Part shown: in pieces, positions 14,081 through 26,298 of the stretch
Position numbering within the stretch: position 1 is the stretch's first letter
Layout of the letters: each line of letters opens with the position of its first letter
From: Rhizobium sophoriradicis
Lineage (GTDB): Bacteria > Pseudomonadota > Alphaproteobacteria > Rhizobiales > Rhizobiaceae
Reading direction: 5' to 3'
Length of the DNA stretch: 64,000 nucleotides
Assembly (NCBI RefSeq): GCF_003939025.1
Contig: NZ_RQIH01000008.1
Coordinates: 124,001-188,000 of the forward strand
The notes under the pieces: generated by a model
What the model saw: only the letters and a program-made list of their open reading frames with translations
What the model was told of the DNA's origin: nothing
Databases searched by the model: none
Position numbers and translations under genes: made by a program

Positions 14081-15079
14081 TTATCGGTGGCTGACGCGCT
14101 TCCTCGTGTCTGAGGGGTATTCCCCATAGGTCGTCCGGTAGACCGCGGAAAAGCGGCCGAAATGGAAGAAGCCCCATTTGAGGCAGATGGCCTTCATCGT
14201 CTCCTTGCTTTCGGGATCGAGCAGGTCCTGCCGCGCCGCGCGCAGACGAAGCATCAGCAGATAGGCGGCGGGAGATGTACCCTTGAAGGCGCGAAAACCG
14301 GTTTCGAGCGCCCTGCTCGAGACGCCGGCCGCTTCGGCCACCTTCGGCATGGTGATCGGTTGATCGATATTGGCCTGCATGAACTCGATCGCCCTGCGCA
14401 CATGCCTCGGAGCGATCAGCGCCGGCCCCTTTTCGAGAAAATGCGACAGCCGGTGCGGCACCATGCGCACGACCAGATCGGACAGCGCCTGAGTCATGTG
14501 CGCCATGGCGATCGGCGACTGCAGCAAGGGGCCGTCGTCGCGCATCCCTGATATGATCGTTTCGGTGAGATTGCCGATCGTCCGGCCGACCGGTGTCGAC
14601 AGGTCCAGTTCCGGCAGCAGGTCGAGCGATCCACTGAACGGCATTTCGAAAGTCTGGCCGATTGTCTGGAGGATAACGGGCCAGTTGATCAGCAGTTCGT
14701 CGATGACGTTCCCTTGCCCATGCATGAGAACGCTATCGGGTTCGAAATTGTTGTAGAGAAGCAATTTTCCTTGCCCGGCTTCGGCCTTGCGCGCTCCATA
14801 GGTCACCCCCATGCCGCCGCGACGGGGGACGACCAGCGACAGATATTCGGCCGTGCTGACGGTCGGCTCGATGTTGAACTGGAACTCCGCCTCATGATAG
14901 CCGGTCAGCAGGACCGCGCTGTTCGCCACCGAAAAATCCAATCCCCAATGGAAGTCCTTGGCGCGGCCGACGGGCTCGGCATCGAACGCGCCAAATGCAC
15001 CCCCCAGGGTTTCCACCATGTTGTCGAAGGACGAACCATGGAATCGGAAGGAGAATGGCTTTGCGCTGTCTTCCGTCAT
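14081..15079 (-). CDS. AraC-family transcriptional regulator
   Basis: 332 aa. The N-terminal two thirds form a cupin-like sensing domain of the AraC_binding_2 kind (EYLSLVVPRRGG, LLLYNNFEPDSVLMHG). The C-terminal 100 residues contain the double helix-turn-helix: ITMPKVAEAAGVSSRALETG for the first and AICLKWGFFHFGRFSAVYR for the second, ending with the typical TYGEYPSDTRKR. It converges on the molybdopterin oxidoreductase pair. The target is not evident; the 1.3 kb upstream holds no clear gene that it could control divergently. Confidence 0.88.
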   Translation of the reverse strand: MTEDSAKPFSFRFHGSSFDNMVETLGGAFGAFDAEPVGRAKDFHWGLDFSVANSAVLLTGYHEAEFQFNIEPTVSTAEYLSLVVPRRGGMGVTYGARKAEAGQGKLLLYNNFEPDSVLMHGQGNVIDELLINWPVILQTIGQTFEMPFSGSLDLLPELDLSTPVGRTIGNLTETIISGMRDDGPLLQSPIAMAHMTQALSDLVVRMVPHRLSHFLEKGPALIAPRHVRRAIEFMQANIDQPITMPKVAEAAGVSSRALETGFRAFKGTSPAAYLLMLRLRAARQDLLDPESKETMKAICLKWGFFHFGRFSAVYRTTYGEYPSDTRKRVSHR

Positions 15080-18429: not shown

Positions 18430-19431
18430 TTAGAGAGCAGCTTCGATCTTCGCGGCTGCCTCCGGCGAGACCCATTTGGTCCAGATGTCCTTGTTTTCTT
18501 TAAGGAAGTGCTTGGCGCCGTCTTCGCCGGTCGCCTGGTTATCGGTCATCCACGACATCAGTTTGTTGACCGTGTCGTTGCTCCAGGAGCGCTTCGCCAG
18601 GTAATCCATGACTTCAGGCCCGACCTTTTCCGAGAAGGGCTTGGCAACCAGCGTGACGACATGATCGACCGGCCAGGCCGCCGGCTTCGGATCGGGGCAG
18701 TCGGCGACGGTGATGCAGCGCTTCCATTCGGCTGAATCCTCCGGAACGCCGGCTTCGAGCTTGACCATCTGATACTTGCCGAGCAGCGCGGTCGGCGCCC
18801 AGTAGTAACCGACCCAGCCTTCCTTGCGTTCGTAGGCCTTGGCGATCGAACCGTCGAGGCCGGCGGCAGAGCCGGTGTCGACGAGGGTGAAGCCCGCCTT
18901 CTCCGCGCCGAACGCCTTATAGAGCTGCGAGGTGACGACTGTGCCGCCCCAGCCCTGCGGGCCGTTGACGATGGCGCCCTTCTTCGGATCCTCCGGATCA
19001 GGGAAGAGTTCCGGATGCTTCAGCACGTCGCCGATCGTCTTGATGTCGGGATGGGCGTCGGCGAGATATTTCGGAATCCACCAGCCCTGTACGCCGCCGT
19101 CCGGCAGCGGCGAGCCGACCTGCACGATGCGGCCTTCTTCCGTACCCTTCTTGACGACATCCGGCAGCAGGTCGATCCAGGCTTCCGGAGCAATATCAGG
19201 CTGACCCTTTTCGGCCATGGAGGTGATTGTCGGGACGGTGTCGCCGACGGTGATGTCGGCGCTGCAGCCATAACCTTCGTTCAGGATGAACTTGTCCAGG
19301 TTGGAGAGAACTTCGGCGCTCTGCCAGTTCATGCTGGCGATGGTGACGCTGCCGCATTCGGCAGCGCTGGCAAAAGACGCGCCGCCGAGCAGGCCGAACG
19401 TCAAACATGTCGATGCGAGTAGTTTCTTCAT
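18430..19431 (-). CDS. Quaternary-amine ABC transporter substrate-binding protein
   Basis: 333 aa with a clear signal peptide (MKKLLASTCLTFGLLGG, cleavage probably after FASA). The mature part matches the OpuAC/ProX fold family: VTIASMNWQSAEVLS at the start, PDIAPEAWIDLLPDV, GWWIPKYLADAHPDIKT, and LMSWMTDNQATG near the end. Trp residues such as those in EAW, GWW, GYYWAP and AAWP are candidates for the aromatic box that holds trimethylammonium or dimethylpyrrolidinium groups. The ligand could be proline betaine, glycine betaine or choline; the sequence does not look like a close ChoX. First gene of the three-gene transporter operon. Confidence 0.88.
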   Translation of the reverse strand: MKKLLASTCLTFGLLGGASFASAAECGSVTIASMNWQSAEVLSNLDKFILNEGYGCSADITVGDTVPTITSMAEKGQPDIAPEAWIDLLPDVVKKGTEEGRIVQVGSPLPDGGVQGWWIPKYLADAHPDIKTIGDVLKHPELFPDPEDPKKGAIVNGPQGWGGTVVTSQLYKAFGAEKAGFTLVDTGSAAGLDGSIAKAYERKEGWVGYYWAPTALLGKYQMVKLEAGVPEDSAEWKRCITVADCPDPKPAAWPVDHVVTLVAKPFSEKVGPEVMDYLAKRSWSNDTVNKLMSWMTDNQATGEDGAKHFLKENKDIWTKWVSPEAAAKIEAAL

Positions 19432-19499
19432 TCTCGTTCCCTCTATTTAGCGGCGGATCTAGCAAGGCGGGGTGCCGCAGTACCCGCCCTCAACGGTCG

Positions 19500-20294
19500 T
19501 CAGGAAGCGTCTCCCATACTCACCGATTTCTTGAAAGCTGCCGATAGTCCGTCTGCCACCGCGGCGTCGAACCCGGCGGCGCGCATTGCTTCGATGGCTG
19601 CCGCCGTTGTGCCGCGATAGTCGAGAAAGGCCGCAACGATATCGTCAGGAGATTCGTCGCGACGTTCCGCGAGGTGGCCGGCGCCGACCAGCACGGTATT
19701 GACGGCGCGCCGGGCAATCTCGGGCGAAAGGCCATGGGCAACGGCGTCGCTCATCATGGCGGCAGCGAGCAGTGCCGGAAATGCCGGACCGGATCCTGAA
19801 AGGCCCGTGAGGTAGTCGATGTCGCTTTCGCTTGCGACTTCGTCCTGTGATCCGCAAGCCTCGAAAATCGCGCCGACAATGGCCCGGTCATCTGCCGTGA
19901 CACCGCTCGCGCCAATCCAGGGCGTATAGGATCTGCCCACTTCGGCGGCAGCGTTCGGCAGCGCGCGGACGACGCGACCGGTGTTATGGCGTTCTGAAAG
20001 GGCATCCAGTCGGATACCCGCCATGACCGAGATGACGAGCTTGCCGCCGGCATCGAGCGCCAGGCGATGCCAGTCATCGGGGCGAACGGAGAGAATGATC
20101 ACGTCGGAGCGGTCGGCAAGCGCCTGATTGTCAGAAGTCCAGGAGGAGTTCGGGAAACGGCGCGGCTGCTCGCCGCGATAGGAGAGGCAAAGGTTTCGAG
20201 AATCGACCAGGCCGGCGTCAATGATCGAGCCGGCGATTGCTCCGCCAAGCCAGCCGCCGCCACCGATTATGCCGATCCTCAAGGAAACGCTCAT
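19500..20294 (-). CDS. Pyrroline-5-carboxylate reductase-like (ProC family) protein
   Basis: 264 aa from the ATG at 20294, preceded by GAGGAAGGCTGGAG. The N-terminal Rossmann motif is IGIIGGGGWLGGAI, longer in Gly than the usual GxGxxG of ProC. The rest follows ProC: VILSVRPDDW, a VISVMAGI segment, RALPNAAAEVGRSYTPW, and the ProC signature region YLTGLSGSGPAF with VLVGAGHLA later. It would reduce delta-1-pyrroline-5-carboxylate, or a related cyclic imine, with NAD(P)H. The location next to betaine and proline genes fits. Because biosynthetic ProC is usually elsewhere, this copy is probably specialised. Confidence 0.8.
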   Translation of the reverse strand: MSVSLRIGIIGGGGWLGGAIAGSIIDAGLVDSRNLCLSYRGEQPRRFPNSSWTSDNQALADRSDVIILSVRPDDWHRLALDAGGKLVISVMAGIRLDALSERHNTGRVVRALPNAAAEVGRSYTPWIGASGVTADDRAIVGAIFEACGSQDEVASESDIDYLTGLSGSGPAFPALLAAAMMSDAVAHGLSPEIARRAVNTVLVGAGHLAERRDESPDDIVAAFLDYRGTTAAAIEAMRAAGFDAAVADGLSAAFKKSVSMGDAS

Positions 20295-20307: not shown

Positions 20308-20937
20308 CTAACTGGGCCTATAGCCGTGCCGAGAGAAGAAGCGATCAAGCTCCCTCTGCTGCGGCACTTCACCCGTGTAGATCGCAATATACTCCGGAAT
20401 CCGTTTCATGCGGACGGCGATATCCTCCATCGACTGCATGGAGATGTACCCGATCTGCACGAGGTATGTTGTTCGCGCTCTGACATCTGATGTCGTTTCT
20501 GGTACGCCGAACCGCATAAACATGCGCTTCAGCGCCTCCAGCCGGATCTGATCGGCCTGCTGGACTTCGGCCAAAAGCTCGTCCGACTGCAGCGCCCAGC
20601 TGCGGATGGCAAACTCGAATTTCGCGTCGAAGAGATCGGTGTTGAGCCAGCAATCGAAGACGTTGAGCATCGCCTCGGCCAGCGATTCCGCGTAAGCCTC
20701 CGACTGCTTGATGATGTTGCCGGTGTTTTTGTCGCGCCACCGCGCCACCAACGCGCTCAACAGTTCCTCCCGATCCTTGAAGAACCAGTAGAAGCTCGTC
20801 CGCGATAGATTGAGCTTCTTCGCCAAGGGCAGAATTTTTACCGAGTCAACGCCAGACTCGAGCAGGGAATGATAGGCTGCTTCCAGCCATCCCTCCTGCG
20901 ATCCGCGCCAGCCAGTGTCATTCAAAGCCTGATCCAT
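20308..20937 (-). CDS. TetR-family regulator divergent from the demethylase gene
   Basis: 209 aa. An N-terminal helix-turn-helix is visible at about 30-60 (LPLAKKLNLSRTSFYWFFKD), followed by an all-helical ligand domain. It has a slightly unusual N-terminus (DTGWRGSQEGWLEAAY). The gene is divergent from the old-yellow-enzyme demethylase, and a perfect inverted repeat lies between them, so it probably represses that gene and itself and responds to a betaine or a demethylated intermediate. It is followed after 13 bases by the ProC-like gene, suggesting one transcript. Confidence 0.88.
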   Translation of the reverse strand: MDQALNDTGWRGSQEGWLEAAYHSLLESGVDSVKILPLAKKLNLSRTSFYWFFKDREELLSALVARWRDKNTGNIIKQSEAYAESLAEAMLNVFDCWLNTDLFDAKFEFAIRSWALQSDELLAEVQQADQIRLEALKRMFMRFGVPETTSDVRARTTYLVQIGYISMQSMEDIAVRMKRIPEYIAIYTGEVPQQRELDRFFSRHGYRPS

Positions 20938-20977
20938 GAATTATCTCCTATCAAATTACGAGGTGGCGCACAAGAAA

Positions 20978-21039
20978 AATGTACATATGTGTCGAAAATA
21001 ACGACCACGATGTTTTCTGCGTTGACACATATGTACATT
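20978..21039. promoter_or_regulatory. Paired 16-nt inverted repeat, candidate TetR operator
   Basis: AATGTACATATGTGTC at 20978-20993 is repeated exactly in reverse complement as GACACATATGTACATT at 21024-21039, with 30 bases between. Each arm contains its own near-palindrome around ACATATGT, so each arm may bind one TetR dimer. The arms flank the space between the two divergent starts (20937 and 21084), and the right arm overlaps a candidate promoter. It is the strongest regulatory signal in the window. Confidence 0.8.
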
Positions 21040-21050
21040 GCGCATAGCGT
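21022..21050 (+). promoter_or_regulatory. Candidate sigma-70 promoter of the demethylase gene
   Basis: TTGACA at 21022-21027 is followed after 17 bases by TAGCGT at 21045-21050, with the start codon at 21084. The right arm of the inverted repeat covers most of the -35 box and the spacer, so a bound regulator would block RNA polymerase. Confidence 0.55.
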
Positions 21051-21083
21051 TCCCATGTCGTTTTTAATCCGGAACCACGGCCC

Positions 21084-23120
21084 ATGTCGAATGATCCTCT
21101 CCTTCAGCCTTACCAGCTCAAGCATCTGAAGCTGCGCAACCGTATCATCGTGACCTCGCACGAGCCGGCCTATCCGGAAGATGGTATGCCGAAGGAAAAG
21201 TATCGCGCCTATACGGTGGAGCGGGCAAAGGGCGGCGTCGCCCTGACGATGACGGCGGGTTCGGCGGCCGTCTCCAAGGACAGCCCGCCGGTCTTCAACA
21301 ACCTGCTTGCATATAAGGACGAGATCGTTCCCTGGATCAGGGAAATGACCGATGCCGTGCACGAAGAGGGAGCGGCAATCATGATCCAGCTCACCCATCT
21401 CGGCCGGCGCACGCGCTGGGACAAGGGCGACTGGCTGCCGGTTGTGGCGCCGTCGCATCATCGCGAGGCTTCCCATCGCGCTTTCCCGAAGAAGCTGGAA
21501 GACTGGGATATCGAGCGCATCATCAAGGATTTCGCCGACGCGGCCGAGCGCATGAAGGCGGGCGGCATGGACGGTGTCGAGCTTGAGGCCTACGGCCACC
21601 TGATAGACCAGTTCGTGTCTCCGCTCACCAATGAGCTCGACGGCCCCTATGGCGGTTCGCTCGACAATCGCCTGCGCTTCTGTTTCGACGTGTTCAAGGC
21701 AATCCGGAAAAGGGTGGGCGACGATTTCATTCTCGGCCTGCGCTATACGGCCGACGAATGTCTTCCCGGCGGCACGGGCAAAGCCGAAGGCCTCGAAATC
21801 TCCAAGCGATTGAAGGAGAGCGGCCTCATCGATTACCTGAATGTGATCCGTGGACACATCGATACCGATGCCGGTCTGACAGATGTGATCCCGATCCAGG
21901 GCATGGCGAATTCCCCGCATCTCGATTTCGCCGGCGAAATTCGCGCCGCGACCGATTTCCCAACCTTTCATGCGGCGAAAATCCCGGATGTGGCCACCGC
22001 TCGCCATGCCATCGCGTCCGGCAAGGTCGACATGGTCGGCATGACCCGCGCCCACATGACCGACCCGCACATCGTTCGCAAGATCATCGAAAAGCGGGAA
22101 GAGGAAATCCGGCCCTGCGTCGGCGCCAATTACTGTCTCGACCGCATCTACCAGGGCGGCGCCGCCTACTGCATCCACAACGCCGCCACCGGCCGCGAAC
22201 TGACCATGCCGCATATCCTGGCCAAGGCCGATGTGAAGAAGAAGGTCGTTATCGTCGGCGCCGGTCCGGCCGGTCTTGAGGCGGCGCGGGTGGCTGGGGA
22301 ACGCGGCCACAAGGTCGTGGTTTTCGAGGCGGCGAACAATCCGGGCGGCCAGATCCGCCTCACTGCCCAGAGCGAACGCCGCAGGGAGATGATCAGCATC
22401 ATCGACTGGCGCATGAGCCAGTGCGAGAAATACGACGTGACCTTCCACTTCAACACCTGGGCGGAAGCCGACACGATCGAAGCCGAAAACCCCGATGTCG
22501 TCATTATCGCGACCGGCGGCCTGCCGCACACCGAAGTTCTTTCGAAGGGCAACGAGCTGGTGATCTCCTCATGGGACATCATCTCCGGCGACGTGAAGCC
22601 TGGTACCAACGTCCTGATTTTCGACGATGCCGGCGACCATGCCGCCCTCCAGGCGGCGGAATTTCTCGCCAAGGCAGGCGCCAAGGTCGAGATCATGACG
22701 CCCGACCGCTCCTTCGCGCCCGAGGTCATGGCGATGAACCTCGTGCCCTATATGCGCTCGCTTCAAAAGCATGACGTGACCTTCACCGTCACCTATCGCC
22801 TGGAGGCGGTCGAGAAGAGCGGCAATCAGCTTGTCGCCCATGTTGGCAGCGATTATGGCGGGATTGCCAAGCAGAGCAGCTACGACCAGATCATCGTCAA
22901 TCATGGGACCATTCCGCTCGATGAGCTCTATTTCGAGCTGAAGCCCAATTCGAGCAACCTGGGCGAGATGTCGCACGAGCAGCTTCTGGCCGGCGAACCG
23001 CAGTCGGTCGTTCGCAATCCCGAGGGCAAATTCCAGCTGTTCCGGATCGGCGACGCTGTCGCTGCGCGCAACACGCATGCCGCCGTCTATGACGGCCTGC
23101 GCATCGCGAAAGATATATGA
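21084..23120 (+). CDS. StcD/DgcA-like FMN/FAD N-methyl amine demethylase
   Basis: 678 aa, the length of the trimethylamine dehydrogenase / 2,4-dienoyl-CoA reductase class. Residues 1-370 are an old-yellow-enzyme FMN barrel (LKLRNRIIVTSHEPAY, HLGRRTRW, DGVELEAYGHLIDQF, PYGGSLDNRLRF). An iron-sulfur loop follows with C-x5-C-x11-C (CVGANYC, then AYCIHN). After it come KKVVIVGAGPAGLEAARVAG (FAD/NAD domain) and a second Rossmann region. The sequence is close to what I know of N-methylproline demethylase StcD and dimethylglycine demethylase DgcA. These remove an N-methyl group and pass electrons to ETF, releasing formaldehyde; etfBA lie 0.8 kb downstream. Substrate choice between the two is not decided. 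Confidence 0.85.
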   Translation: MSNDPLLQPYQLKHLKLRNRIIVTSHEPAYPEDGMPKEKYRAYTVERAKGGVALTMTAGSAAVSKDSPPVFNNLLAYKDEIVPWIREMTDAVHEEGAAIMIQLTHLGRRTRWDKGDWLPVVAPSHHREASHRAFPKKLEDWDIERIIKDFADAAERMKAGGMDGVELEAYGHLIDQFVSPLTNELDGPYGGSLDNRLRFCFDVFKAIRKRVGDDFILGLRYTADECLPGGTGKAEGLEISKRLKESGLIDYLNVIRGHIDTDAGLTDVIPIQGMANSPHLDFAGEIRAATDFPTFHAAKIPDVATARHAIASGKVDMVGMTRAHMTDPHIVRKIIEKREEEIRPCVGANYCLDRIYQGGAAYCIHNAATGRELTMPHILAKADVKKKVVIVGAGPAGLEAARVAGERGHKVVVFEAANNPGGQIRLTAQSERRREMISIIDWRMSQCEKYDVTFHFNTWAEADTIEAENPDVVIIATGGLPHTEVLSKGNELVISSWDIISGDVKPGTNVLIFDDAGDHAALQAAEFLAKAGAKVEIMTPDRSFAPEVMAMNLVPYMRSLQKHDVTFTVTYRLEAVEKSGNQLVAHVGSDYGGIAKQSSYDQIIVNHGTIPLDELYFELKPNSSNLGEMSHEQLLAGEPQSVVRNPEGKFQLFRIGDAVAARNTHAAVYDGLRIAKDI

Positions 23121-23177
23121 TTGCAGGAGAGGCCACTGACTGGCCGGCTAAAATCGTCTGTTCAGGGAGGGGATGGC

Positions 23178-23783
23178 ATGAGTATACGTGAGGAGAGCCT
23201 GCAGCTTTTCCTGGACGCGGCGTCTCAGGCTTTCCAGGTGTTTGCGACAGCCCCGGAGGCCCGGCGCTCGATCCGGCAGTTTCTCGCAAGGCTGGAGCAG
23301 CCGGGGGCCGCACGGGCGGGGGACGGGAGCCGGTTGCCGGTCTGCACTCACCTTGATGTGGCGCTCGCGATTGATACCTCCTATGATCCTTCGCTGGAGC
23401 GATTGATCGAGGCGTTCAAAGGCATCGAGCCAATGCTTGAATGGCGTCGGCGTACCAAGTATGACCACTCGGCCAGCGACAATTTTGCCGATGGGCATGC
23501 CAATGCGATGATCATCGGCCCCGGTGGATTGGAGGAGCGGAGCGATCTGTGGCTCGGGGTGACGTTGATGGCGCCGCACGTGCGCTATCCGGATCATGAT
23601 CATGCGCCGGAGGAGGTCTATCTCGTGCTTTCCGAGGGGGAGTTCAAGCAGGGTGAGGGGGGCTGGTTTTCGCCTGGCATCGGCGGATCGTTCTATAATG
23701 TCCCAGGGATCAAACATGCCATGCGGTCGGTCGATACGCCGCTTTTCGCCTTCTGGGCTTTGCTTGCCGAACGGCCGCACTAG
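23178..23783 (+). CDS. DddQ-like cupin (DMSP lyase family), ligands intact
   Basis: 201 aa from the ATG at 23178, with GGGAGGGG just upstream. The C-terminal half is a cupin: PDHDHAPEEVYLVLSEG gives the motif HxHx3Ex6G with His140, His142 and Glu146, and His180 in PGIKHAMRS is the fourth expected metal ligand. The family is annotated as dimethylsulfoniopropionate lyase because of DddQ. In soil rhizobia, and here between demethylase and etf genes, a role on betaine-related compounds is more plausible than DMSP cleavage (inference). It follows the demethylase by 57 bases and is probably in the same transcript. Confidence 0.75.
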   Translation: MSIREESLQLFLDAASQAFQVFATAPEARRSIRQFLARLEQPGAARAGDGSRLPVCTHLDVALAIDTSYDPSLERLIEAFKGIEPMLEWRRRTKYDHSASDNFADGHANAMIIGPGGLEERSDLWLGVTLMAPHVRYPDHDHAPEEVYLVLSEGEFKQGEGGWFSPGIGGSFYNVPGIKHAMRSVDTPLFAFWALLAERPH

Positions 23784-25605: not shown

Positions 25606-26298
25606 GTGGCGCGCGTGGTGGGACGTCCAATCAGACCTGGTGCTGACCTTCTCCTGAACGATGAGGAAAAGCCGGCCTATATAAGGCTGCACGACATCGG
25701 AAGGGAAAGGCGTCCCCGGCCGCTGCAGGAATTTCTCAACGATATCGGTGGGCTGATGCTGTCGGCAGATGCTCCCGCCGTTGCCAGTTTCGTTGCGGGC
25801 AAGGTCCTTCAGAGGCTGCTTAAGACAGGCAAGGTGCACCCGGAGGGAGGCCCTCTTCCAGGCGTGCCCGAAGGGCTGGATGACGCGATCCGTTATTTGG
25901 CAAAATCCGGACGGAAATACGAGGCGATCGCCGGCCAGTTCAAGAGCCTGGCCGACAGACTGCTGTGGAGACGCGGCCGCACCGGCCCGTTTGCCAGCCT
26001 GAACTTCGGCAATACGCACTCCCATGCGGTTCTGGTCGGCCCTGGCGGCATGGAAGAGCGCGCCGATCTCCGGGTCGGAGTGATCTATATGGATCGCTAC
26101 ACCCGCTTCCCCGACCATGTTCAGACGCAGCCGCGCGCCTTCATTCTGCTTTCACCGGGAGAAATCTGCCTTGGTGACTCGCAGTGGTTTTCTGCCGCGA
26201 CCGGAACGGTCTTCGCGAATGATGCCGGGCAATCCTTCGCGATAAGGTGTACGGCCCAGCCGCTTCTGGCGGTGTGGTGTCAGGTCGAGCCGGGATGA
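25606..26298 (+). CDS. Degenerate DddQ-like cupin lacking metal ligands
   Basis: 230 aa, GTG start with GGGGAG seven bases upstream, 14 bases after etfA. It is a divergent relative of the cupin at 23178-23783: [20 protein letters not shown] matches ANAMIIGPGGLEERSDLWLG in the other copy. At the cupin motif, however, PDHDHAPEEVYLVLSEG becomes [17 protein letters not shown], so His142 and Glu146 are replaced by Gln and Arg, and the last His (PGIKHA) becomes Phe (AGQSFA). Only one of four metal ligands remains. It keeps a good start and frame, so it may be a non-catalytic partner rather than a pseudogene. Confidence 0.68.

Follow-up and report, generated by a model that had tools for sequence, protein, structure and literature searches.

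An exact inverted repeat and a predicted 21-bp operator row between a TetR-family gene and an HpbA/StcD-like demethylase gene of Rhizobium sophoriradicis

Genes of the locus and their neighbourhood

The window, that is, the whole stretch of 64,000 nucleotides of Rhizobium sophoriradicis DNA that was analysed, carries the gene of a TetR-family regulator and that of a flavin N-demethylase, which diverge from an intergenic region of 146 bp holding a long inverted repeat. The original prediction had placed the repeat between these two genes, and the coordinates on either side (20308-20937, minus strand, and 21084-23120, plus strand) agree with it. The genes considered here are:

14081-15079: AraC-family gene (family match; the R. 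etli stretch has one too)
18430..19431, minus strand: gene of a betaine-type ABC transporter substrate-binding protein (PF04069; the order in R. etli CFN 42 is identical)
19500..20294, minus strand: pyrroline-5-carboxylate reductase-like gene, after the TetR gene (PF14748, PF03807; start chosen from the length of the R. etli gene)
20308..20937, minus strand: TetR-family regulator gene (PF00440; AlphaFold2 model and Foldseek)
21084..23120, plus strand: flavin N-demethylase gene, HpbA/StcD-like (N-methylproline) (PF00724 and PF07992; identity to annotated HpbA)
23121-23783 and 25606-26298, plus strand: two DMSP-lyase-family cupin genes (PF16867), on either side of etfBA

On the plus strand, the demethylase gene is followed by the two cupin genes around etfBA and then by formaldehyde-oxidising genes, namely those for S-(hydroxymethyl)glutathione dehydrogenase, S-formylglutathione hydrolase and Gfa, which were named by their position and the annotation of R. 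etli CFN 42. The betaine ABC transporter and the formaldehyde-oxidising genes also adjoin in R. etli. The demethylase was found to share 73.6% identity over 678 aa with a Paracoccus aminovorans protein annotated as N-methyl-L-proline N-demethylase HpbA, the gene of which likewise diverges from a TetR gene that is followed by a betaine ABC transporter, and it is 90.1% identical to the S. meliloti SM11 gene at the equivalent place. This high identity to an annotated member over the full length, together with the betaine-catabolic neighbours, points to an HpbA/StcD-like enzyme with a predicted role in N-methylproline demethylation. As the identity to HpbA, the divergent TetR gene and the betaine ABC transporter occur together, the cluster most likely serves proline-betaine (stachydrine)-type uptake and demethylation, probably for a plant betaine. 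The accessible part of PMC12239276 connects stachydrine with the colonisation of roots and with nodulation. No paper on a TetR regulator or an operator of the HpbA/StcD pathway was present among the matches listed in the openly licensed literature. The product of the gene at 19500-20294 scored 172.6 bits, which is under the NCBIfam proC cut-off of 196.75, so that its substrate may be a related imine that is perhaps reduced instead.

The regulator possesses the N-terminal helix-turn-helix domain of TetR type (PF00440, E-value 1.8e-07, 31.3 bits against a cut-off of 24) and its AlphaFold2 model is an all-helical TetR fold with 11 helices and a mean pLDDT of 94.2. The seven Foldseek matches at E <= 0.001 comprised 3rh2 (TetR-like), which had the best E-value with a TM of 0.64, two chains of 2np5 ('transcriptional regulator'), TetR(D), AlkX, TtgR and AmtR. 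The protein is 100% identical to the copies of R. sophoriradicis and Rhizobium sp. Kim5 and 99% identical to those of R. lentis and R. phaseoli. From the gene content, a betaine- or N-methylproline-type ligand may be guessed as its inducer.

The inverted repeat, its predicted operators and the promoters

The arms of the repeat at 20978-20993 (AATGTACATATGTGTC) and 21024-21039 (GACACATATGTACATT) are exact reverse complements in 16 of 16 positions and are separated by 30 nt. When the 146-bp intergenic region was shuffled 5000 times with its dinucleotides kept, no exact inverted repeat exceeded 13 nt, a length that arose in one shuffle. Besides, the repeat is the sole exact 16-nt inverted repeat of the 64-kb window with arms at most 60 nt apart, and none of 14 nt or longer with such arms appeared in 30 shuffles of the whole window. 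The shuffles thus exclude a chance origin, and the perfect 16-nt repeat that had been claimed is real. Both arms are exact in just two of the 80 named relatives (L039 and L040; best 80 of 549), and the 16/16 identity is in part due to chance agreement at four variable positions in the centre. What is conserved is the predicted operator and not the mutual identity of the arms.

The region upstream of the TetR gene was aligned for the window and 80 named relatives (best 80 of 549), amounting to 41 effective sequences, and the weighted column information gave AATGTACAYNNRTGTC as the consensus of both arms, with a variable centre. The core of the operator is the dyad ACAYNNRTGT, and as this core lies off-centre within the arm, the two dyads fall at 21029.5 and 20987.5, which are 42 bp apart. 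The distance of 46 bases given originally is correct as geometry, for the arm centres; the distance of functional relevance would be the 42 bp between the off-centre dyads. Together with a weaker site between them, the predicted sites are:

21022..21039, minus strand: op1, which reads AATGTACATATGTGTCAA on that strand, dyad centre 21029.5; the right arm and two further bases (conserved columns)
21003..21016, minus strand: middle, weaker site AAAACA-N5-GTC, dyad centre 21008.5 (conserved columns; core match)
20978..20995, plus strand: op2, reading TCGACACATATGTACATT on the minus strand, dyad centre 20987.5; the left arm and two further bases (conserved columns)

Conservation of the arms upstream of orthologous genes had been proposed earlier as a check, and both sites were found to be kept in 80/80 named relatives (best 80 of 549), op1 and op2 each having at most two mismatches over the 12 informative positions in all of them and at most one in 77/80. 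A fully palindromic site, CTTGACATATATGTCAAG, lies upstream of the gene of a distant TetR homologue of 44% identity (L183). These columns argue with high confidence for the arms being two copies of one operator rather than one large palindrome. A single 16+16 palindrome under one dimer was rejected in view of the 30-nt gap and of every arm having its own dyad and variable centre.

When the degenerate operator was searched in the own genome of the strain, 0-1 mismatch was reached only at the two sites of the window, and 25 further places had two mismatches, giving 27 places in total against 8 for the reversed pattern. The lack of any other site at 0-1 mismatch is as expected of a local regulator, and a genome-wide regulon was discarded on the same count. 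Within the window, the scan at <=3 mismatches returned 52 matches against 62.9 expected and no extra site before the ABC-transporter gene (19432-19499).

The dyad of the middle site lies exactly 21 bp from the dyads of both op1 and op2, and the register ACA-N5-GTC is common to all three. Over offsets of +11 to +31 relative to op1, the core match has a single peak, at +21, with a mean of 6.23 out of 8 in the 64 close loci scored (second-best offset 4.27) and of 5.57 in 14 distal ones (second-best offset 3.93). Six or more of the 8 positions match at +21 in 88% of the close and 57% of the distal loci, as against at most 11% and 14%, respectively, at the other offsets tested. The T of the right half-site is mostly missing from the middle site of the close loci, being present in 7% of weighted sequences. 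In Agrobacterium pusense and Rhizobium rhizogenes (L091, L105), op2 is degenerate and the middle site has an exact core, a pattern that looks like compensation, with binding strength moved one site along the row.

The promoter elements recognised around these sites are:

21022..21027, plus strand: -35 box of the demethylase promoter, TTGACA, which overlaps op1; kept in 119/125 loci
21045..21050, plus strand: -10 box of the same promoter, TAGCGT, after a spacer of 17 nt; columns 21045, 21046 and 21048 invariant
20968..20973, minus strand: probable -35 box TTGTGC of the TetR promoter; TTG 17 nt before the hexamer in 77/80 close loci
20945..20953, minus strand: probable extended -10 (TGATAGGAG) of the TetR promoter, with 7 nt between its end and the ATG

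No promoter was returned when 20900-21140 was scanned with the sigma-70 consensus, and the boxes therefore rest on conservation. TAGCGT stands at exactly 17 nt in 41/125 loci and often one base further in others. One arm had been described as covering the TTGACA box; the right arm does overlap 21022-21027, though it covers only four of the six bases. As TTGACA overlaps op1, a dimer on op1 would block RNA polymerase.

On the minus strand, the layout of the TetR promoter between 20937 and 20973 reads TTGTGC-N17-TGnTAGGAG. TGnTA is present in 80/81 close loci and precedes the tetR ATG by 6-7 nt in 77/80 of them, and 12/80 are devoid of a Shine-Dalgarno-like run, which together suggests that the tetR mRNA of the close group is leaderless. 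The motif is missing from 26/46 distal loci, so that the leaderless layout would be limited to the close group. No precedent for a leaderless TetR was found in the openly licensed literature. With this layout, the centre of op2 would be near -50 relative to the tetR start and that of op1 near -28 relative to the demethylase start, and the demethylase gene is predicted to be repressed strongly and the TetR gene more mildly.

Spacing of the sites across relatives

As a distal set we used 83 TetR homologues of the 143 matches listed, made up of 80 and L036-L038, with L009-L035 and 33 others left out. In their upstream regions, the core-to-core distance was 21 in 25/83 and 42 in 12/83, against shuffle means of 0.035 (21 bp) and 0.015 (42 bp) and a largest bin of 2 in any shuffle, a comparison that ignores shared ancestry.

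The distance from op1 to op2 was then counted in 127 loci, namely the window, 80 close loci (best 80 of 549) and 46 distal loci with a divergent demethylase, the 37/83 distal loci without a demethylase in the retrieved DNA being excluded. Six of the 127 have no callable second site. In the other 121, the distance is 21 in 23 loci, 22 in one, 25 in one, 42 in 78, 43 in 17 and 63 in one, where op2 was called with up to three mismatches and some of the '21' calls may be the middle rather than the end site. All except L157, at 25 bp, thus lie within 1 bp of 21, 42 or 63 (120/121). When at most two mismatches are allowed, 31/46 distal loci remain, 30 of them near a multiple of 21. Shuffled distal tails gave a second site in 6.6% of draws and one near a multiple of 21 in 0.7%, shared ancestry again being ignored. 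By contrast, the distance from op1 to the demethylase ATG varies, being 50-58 bp in 111/125 loci and 24 to 161 in the others (L177 and the window left out).

On a quick tree of TetR, in which many forks are unsupported, the spacing class changes at least nine times, and the starred branches alone force three changes for class 42 and two for class 21. Seven short-spaced loci (L118, L037, L038, L140, L146, L158 and L139) carry the site AAAACA...RTGTACATT, which is the left half of the middle site joined in register to the right half of op2, as if it were the remnant expected from deletion of one 21-bp period. Four of the seven (L037, L038, L140 and L146) form one supported clade, so that at most four independent events are represented.

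Among the 416 plasmid records with a match, nine regions were examined. The S. meliloti SM11 locus (L217) has its pair at 42 bp. Of seven Rhodobacterales plasmid loci, L218 and L221 have a 21-bp pair at <=1 mismatch, L223 has one only among several cores with two mismatches, and L219, L220 and L224 (three of seven) have no 21-bp pair, L219 adjoining HpbA. The two exact cores of L222, on a Tritonibacter mobilis plasmid, are 33 bp apart, which is not a multiple of 21. Counted from the estimated start of TetR, these cores lie upstream by about 23 and 56 bp, and one of them is fully symmetric, TTGACACTTGTGTCAA. Apart from these, a 14-mer scan of L155 between 46 and 210 bp upstream of TetR found two operator pairs of 21 bp each, about 110 bp apart, where the row has possibly been duplicated.

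A row of sites at 21 bp on the same helix face can be taken with high confidence as a fact of the sequence in Rhizobiaceae, and more weakly so outside this family. Whether it signifies a same-face row of TetR with a dimer every 21 bp, in which evolution adds or deletes whole 21-bp units and keeps the end half-sites by the promoters, we regard as an even bet.

Proposed repression by a row of dimers, its alternatives and known systems

We propose, with a probability of about 0.78, that the arms are operators of the neighbouring TetR and that a same-face row of three sites represses the demethylase operon. The proposal starts from what is established: the sites exist and are conserved, their spacing is quantised in steps of 21 bp, and one of them overlaps the conserved -35 box. 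Op1, the middle site and op2 would form a row with dyads at 21029.5, 21008.5 and 20987.5, two turns of B-DNA (21 bp) apart, in which each site would be occupied by one repressor dimer, all of them on one face of the helix and near enough for mutual help in binding. In the absence of inducer, the dimer on op1 would cover the -35 box and the spacer of the hpbA/stcD-type promoter, keeping the catabolic operon off, and the middle and op2 sites would strengthen this repression and tune the own promoter of the TetR gene, which probably also drives the pyrroline-5-carboxylate reductase-like and betaine ABC-transporter genes. The repressor would probably be released by a ligand of betaine or N-methylproline type. 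TetR as the binder, the cooperativity, the repression and the inducer are what we infer here.

That TetR binds the predicted operators is likely. We looked at its paralogues of 34-43% identity that have no demethylase in the retrieved DNA (32/37 used; L152, L154, L161, L164 and L182 left out), and the exact core occurs within 120 bp upstream in 6/32 against 0.24 expected, is lacking there in 26/32, and lies inside the gene in none of the 32 stretches.

Two independent TetR operators, one per divergent promoter and without cooperation, would reduce the spacing to packing or inherited layout and the middle block to a promoter or A-tract element, a reading that we hold to be unlikely. Each outer site is complete alone and the middle block is degenerate, and TetR, SimR and DesT are described in the accessible part of PMC4150764 as binding 15-17 bp operators as single dimers. 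However, +21 is the only offset at which the core match within the spacer has a peak, in close as well as distal loci, the spacing shifts almost only by whole 21-bp periods, and seven loci have fused middle and op2 halves. For a cooperative row of three dimers in particular, we put the odds at about even.

Quite improbable is an arrangement in which each arm holds a dimer of dimers on opposite faces, as in QacR or CprB, by means of a second palindrome, ATGTACAT. This palindrome overlaps the main site, is centred 5 bp from the main dyad and occurs in both arms of the window; the outer half is also longer and strongly conserved as far as AAT, and CprB, QacR, CgmR and MS6564 do bind as dimers of dimers on sites of 22-32 bp, CprB with the dimers on opposite sides of the DNA (accessible part of PMC4150764). 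Among weighted sequences, the final base of ATGTACAT at op1 is T in 68% but C in 32%, so that the second palindrome is not strictly kept, unlike ACAYNNRTGT, and some distant homologues have TTGACAYNNRTGTCAA without the second palindrome.

The original prediction had left the choice between two bound dimers and looping over the divergent promoters. The two identical sites do flank the centre in helical phase at 42 bp, but a DNA loop or tetramer bridging both arms across the promoters has a very slim chance, since a loop of 42 bp is very short, known repressor loops being mostly longer, the DNA between the operators is occupied by a further site-like element in phase with them, and many relatives have their sites next to each other at 21 bp. 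With the third site midway between dyads 42 bp apart and this adjacency, a contiguous same-face row fits better than looping, which is not supported. Two bound dimers appear the likelier reading, each arm being one complete operator-like site that is conserved upstream of orthologues, contrary to the lack of conservation that had been named as a refuting outcome. That the sites belong to another regulator, such as the AraC-type protein encoded at 14081-15079, is hardly credible. An AraC-family gene is indeed found in the same stretch and in that of R. etli, but the sites are directly upstream of TetR homologues including the paralogues without a demethylase in the retrieved DNA, the dyad fits a TetR dimer, and AraC sites are usually direct repeats.

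No description of a 21-bp or multi-site TetR array was present among the matches listed in the openly licensed literature. The proposed same-face row shares with TetR/tetO a regulator divergent from its target, an operator over a promoter box and a palindromic stretch of some 16 bp for each dimer. In Tn10 there are two tet operators, whereas here three sites at 21-bp intervals make up one row between both promoters. The accessible part of PMC4150764 describes two kinds of TetR-DNA structure, one with a single dimer on 15-17 bp and the other with a dimer of dimers on a site of 22-32 bp, the dimers of CprB lying on opposite sides of the DNA, and cooperative binding is reported there for QacR and CprB. 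QacR, CprB, CgmR and MS6564, as described in the same source, resemble the present proposal in having more than one dimer per promoter region, but they place two dimers on one site, whereas the sites here are non-overlapping and two full turns apart, so that the dimers would share one face. As for the opposite-face subclass, the dyads of neighbouring sites are 21 bp apart on the same face and so are not of that type, and within the arm the overlapping ATGTACAT palindrome is partly conserved. For proline-betaine-type catabolism in rhizobia, the analysis supplies a predicted operator, AATGTACAYNNRTGTC, along with its candidate regulator. If the row works as proposed, the relatives with spacings of one, two and three periods would be a series made by evolution, on which the role of helical phasing and neighbour contacts could be tested within a single promoter family. 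A row in which the sites do not overlap and are two turns apart appears to fit neither of the TetR-DNA classes described in the accessible part of PMC4150764, and would then signify a TetR-family geometry distinct from both the single dimer and the opposite-face dimer of dimers.
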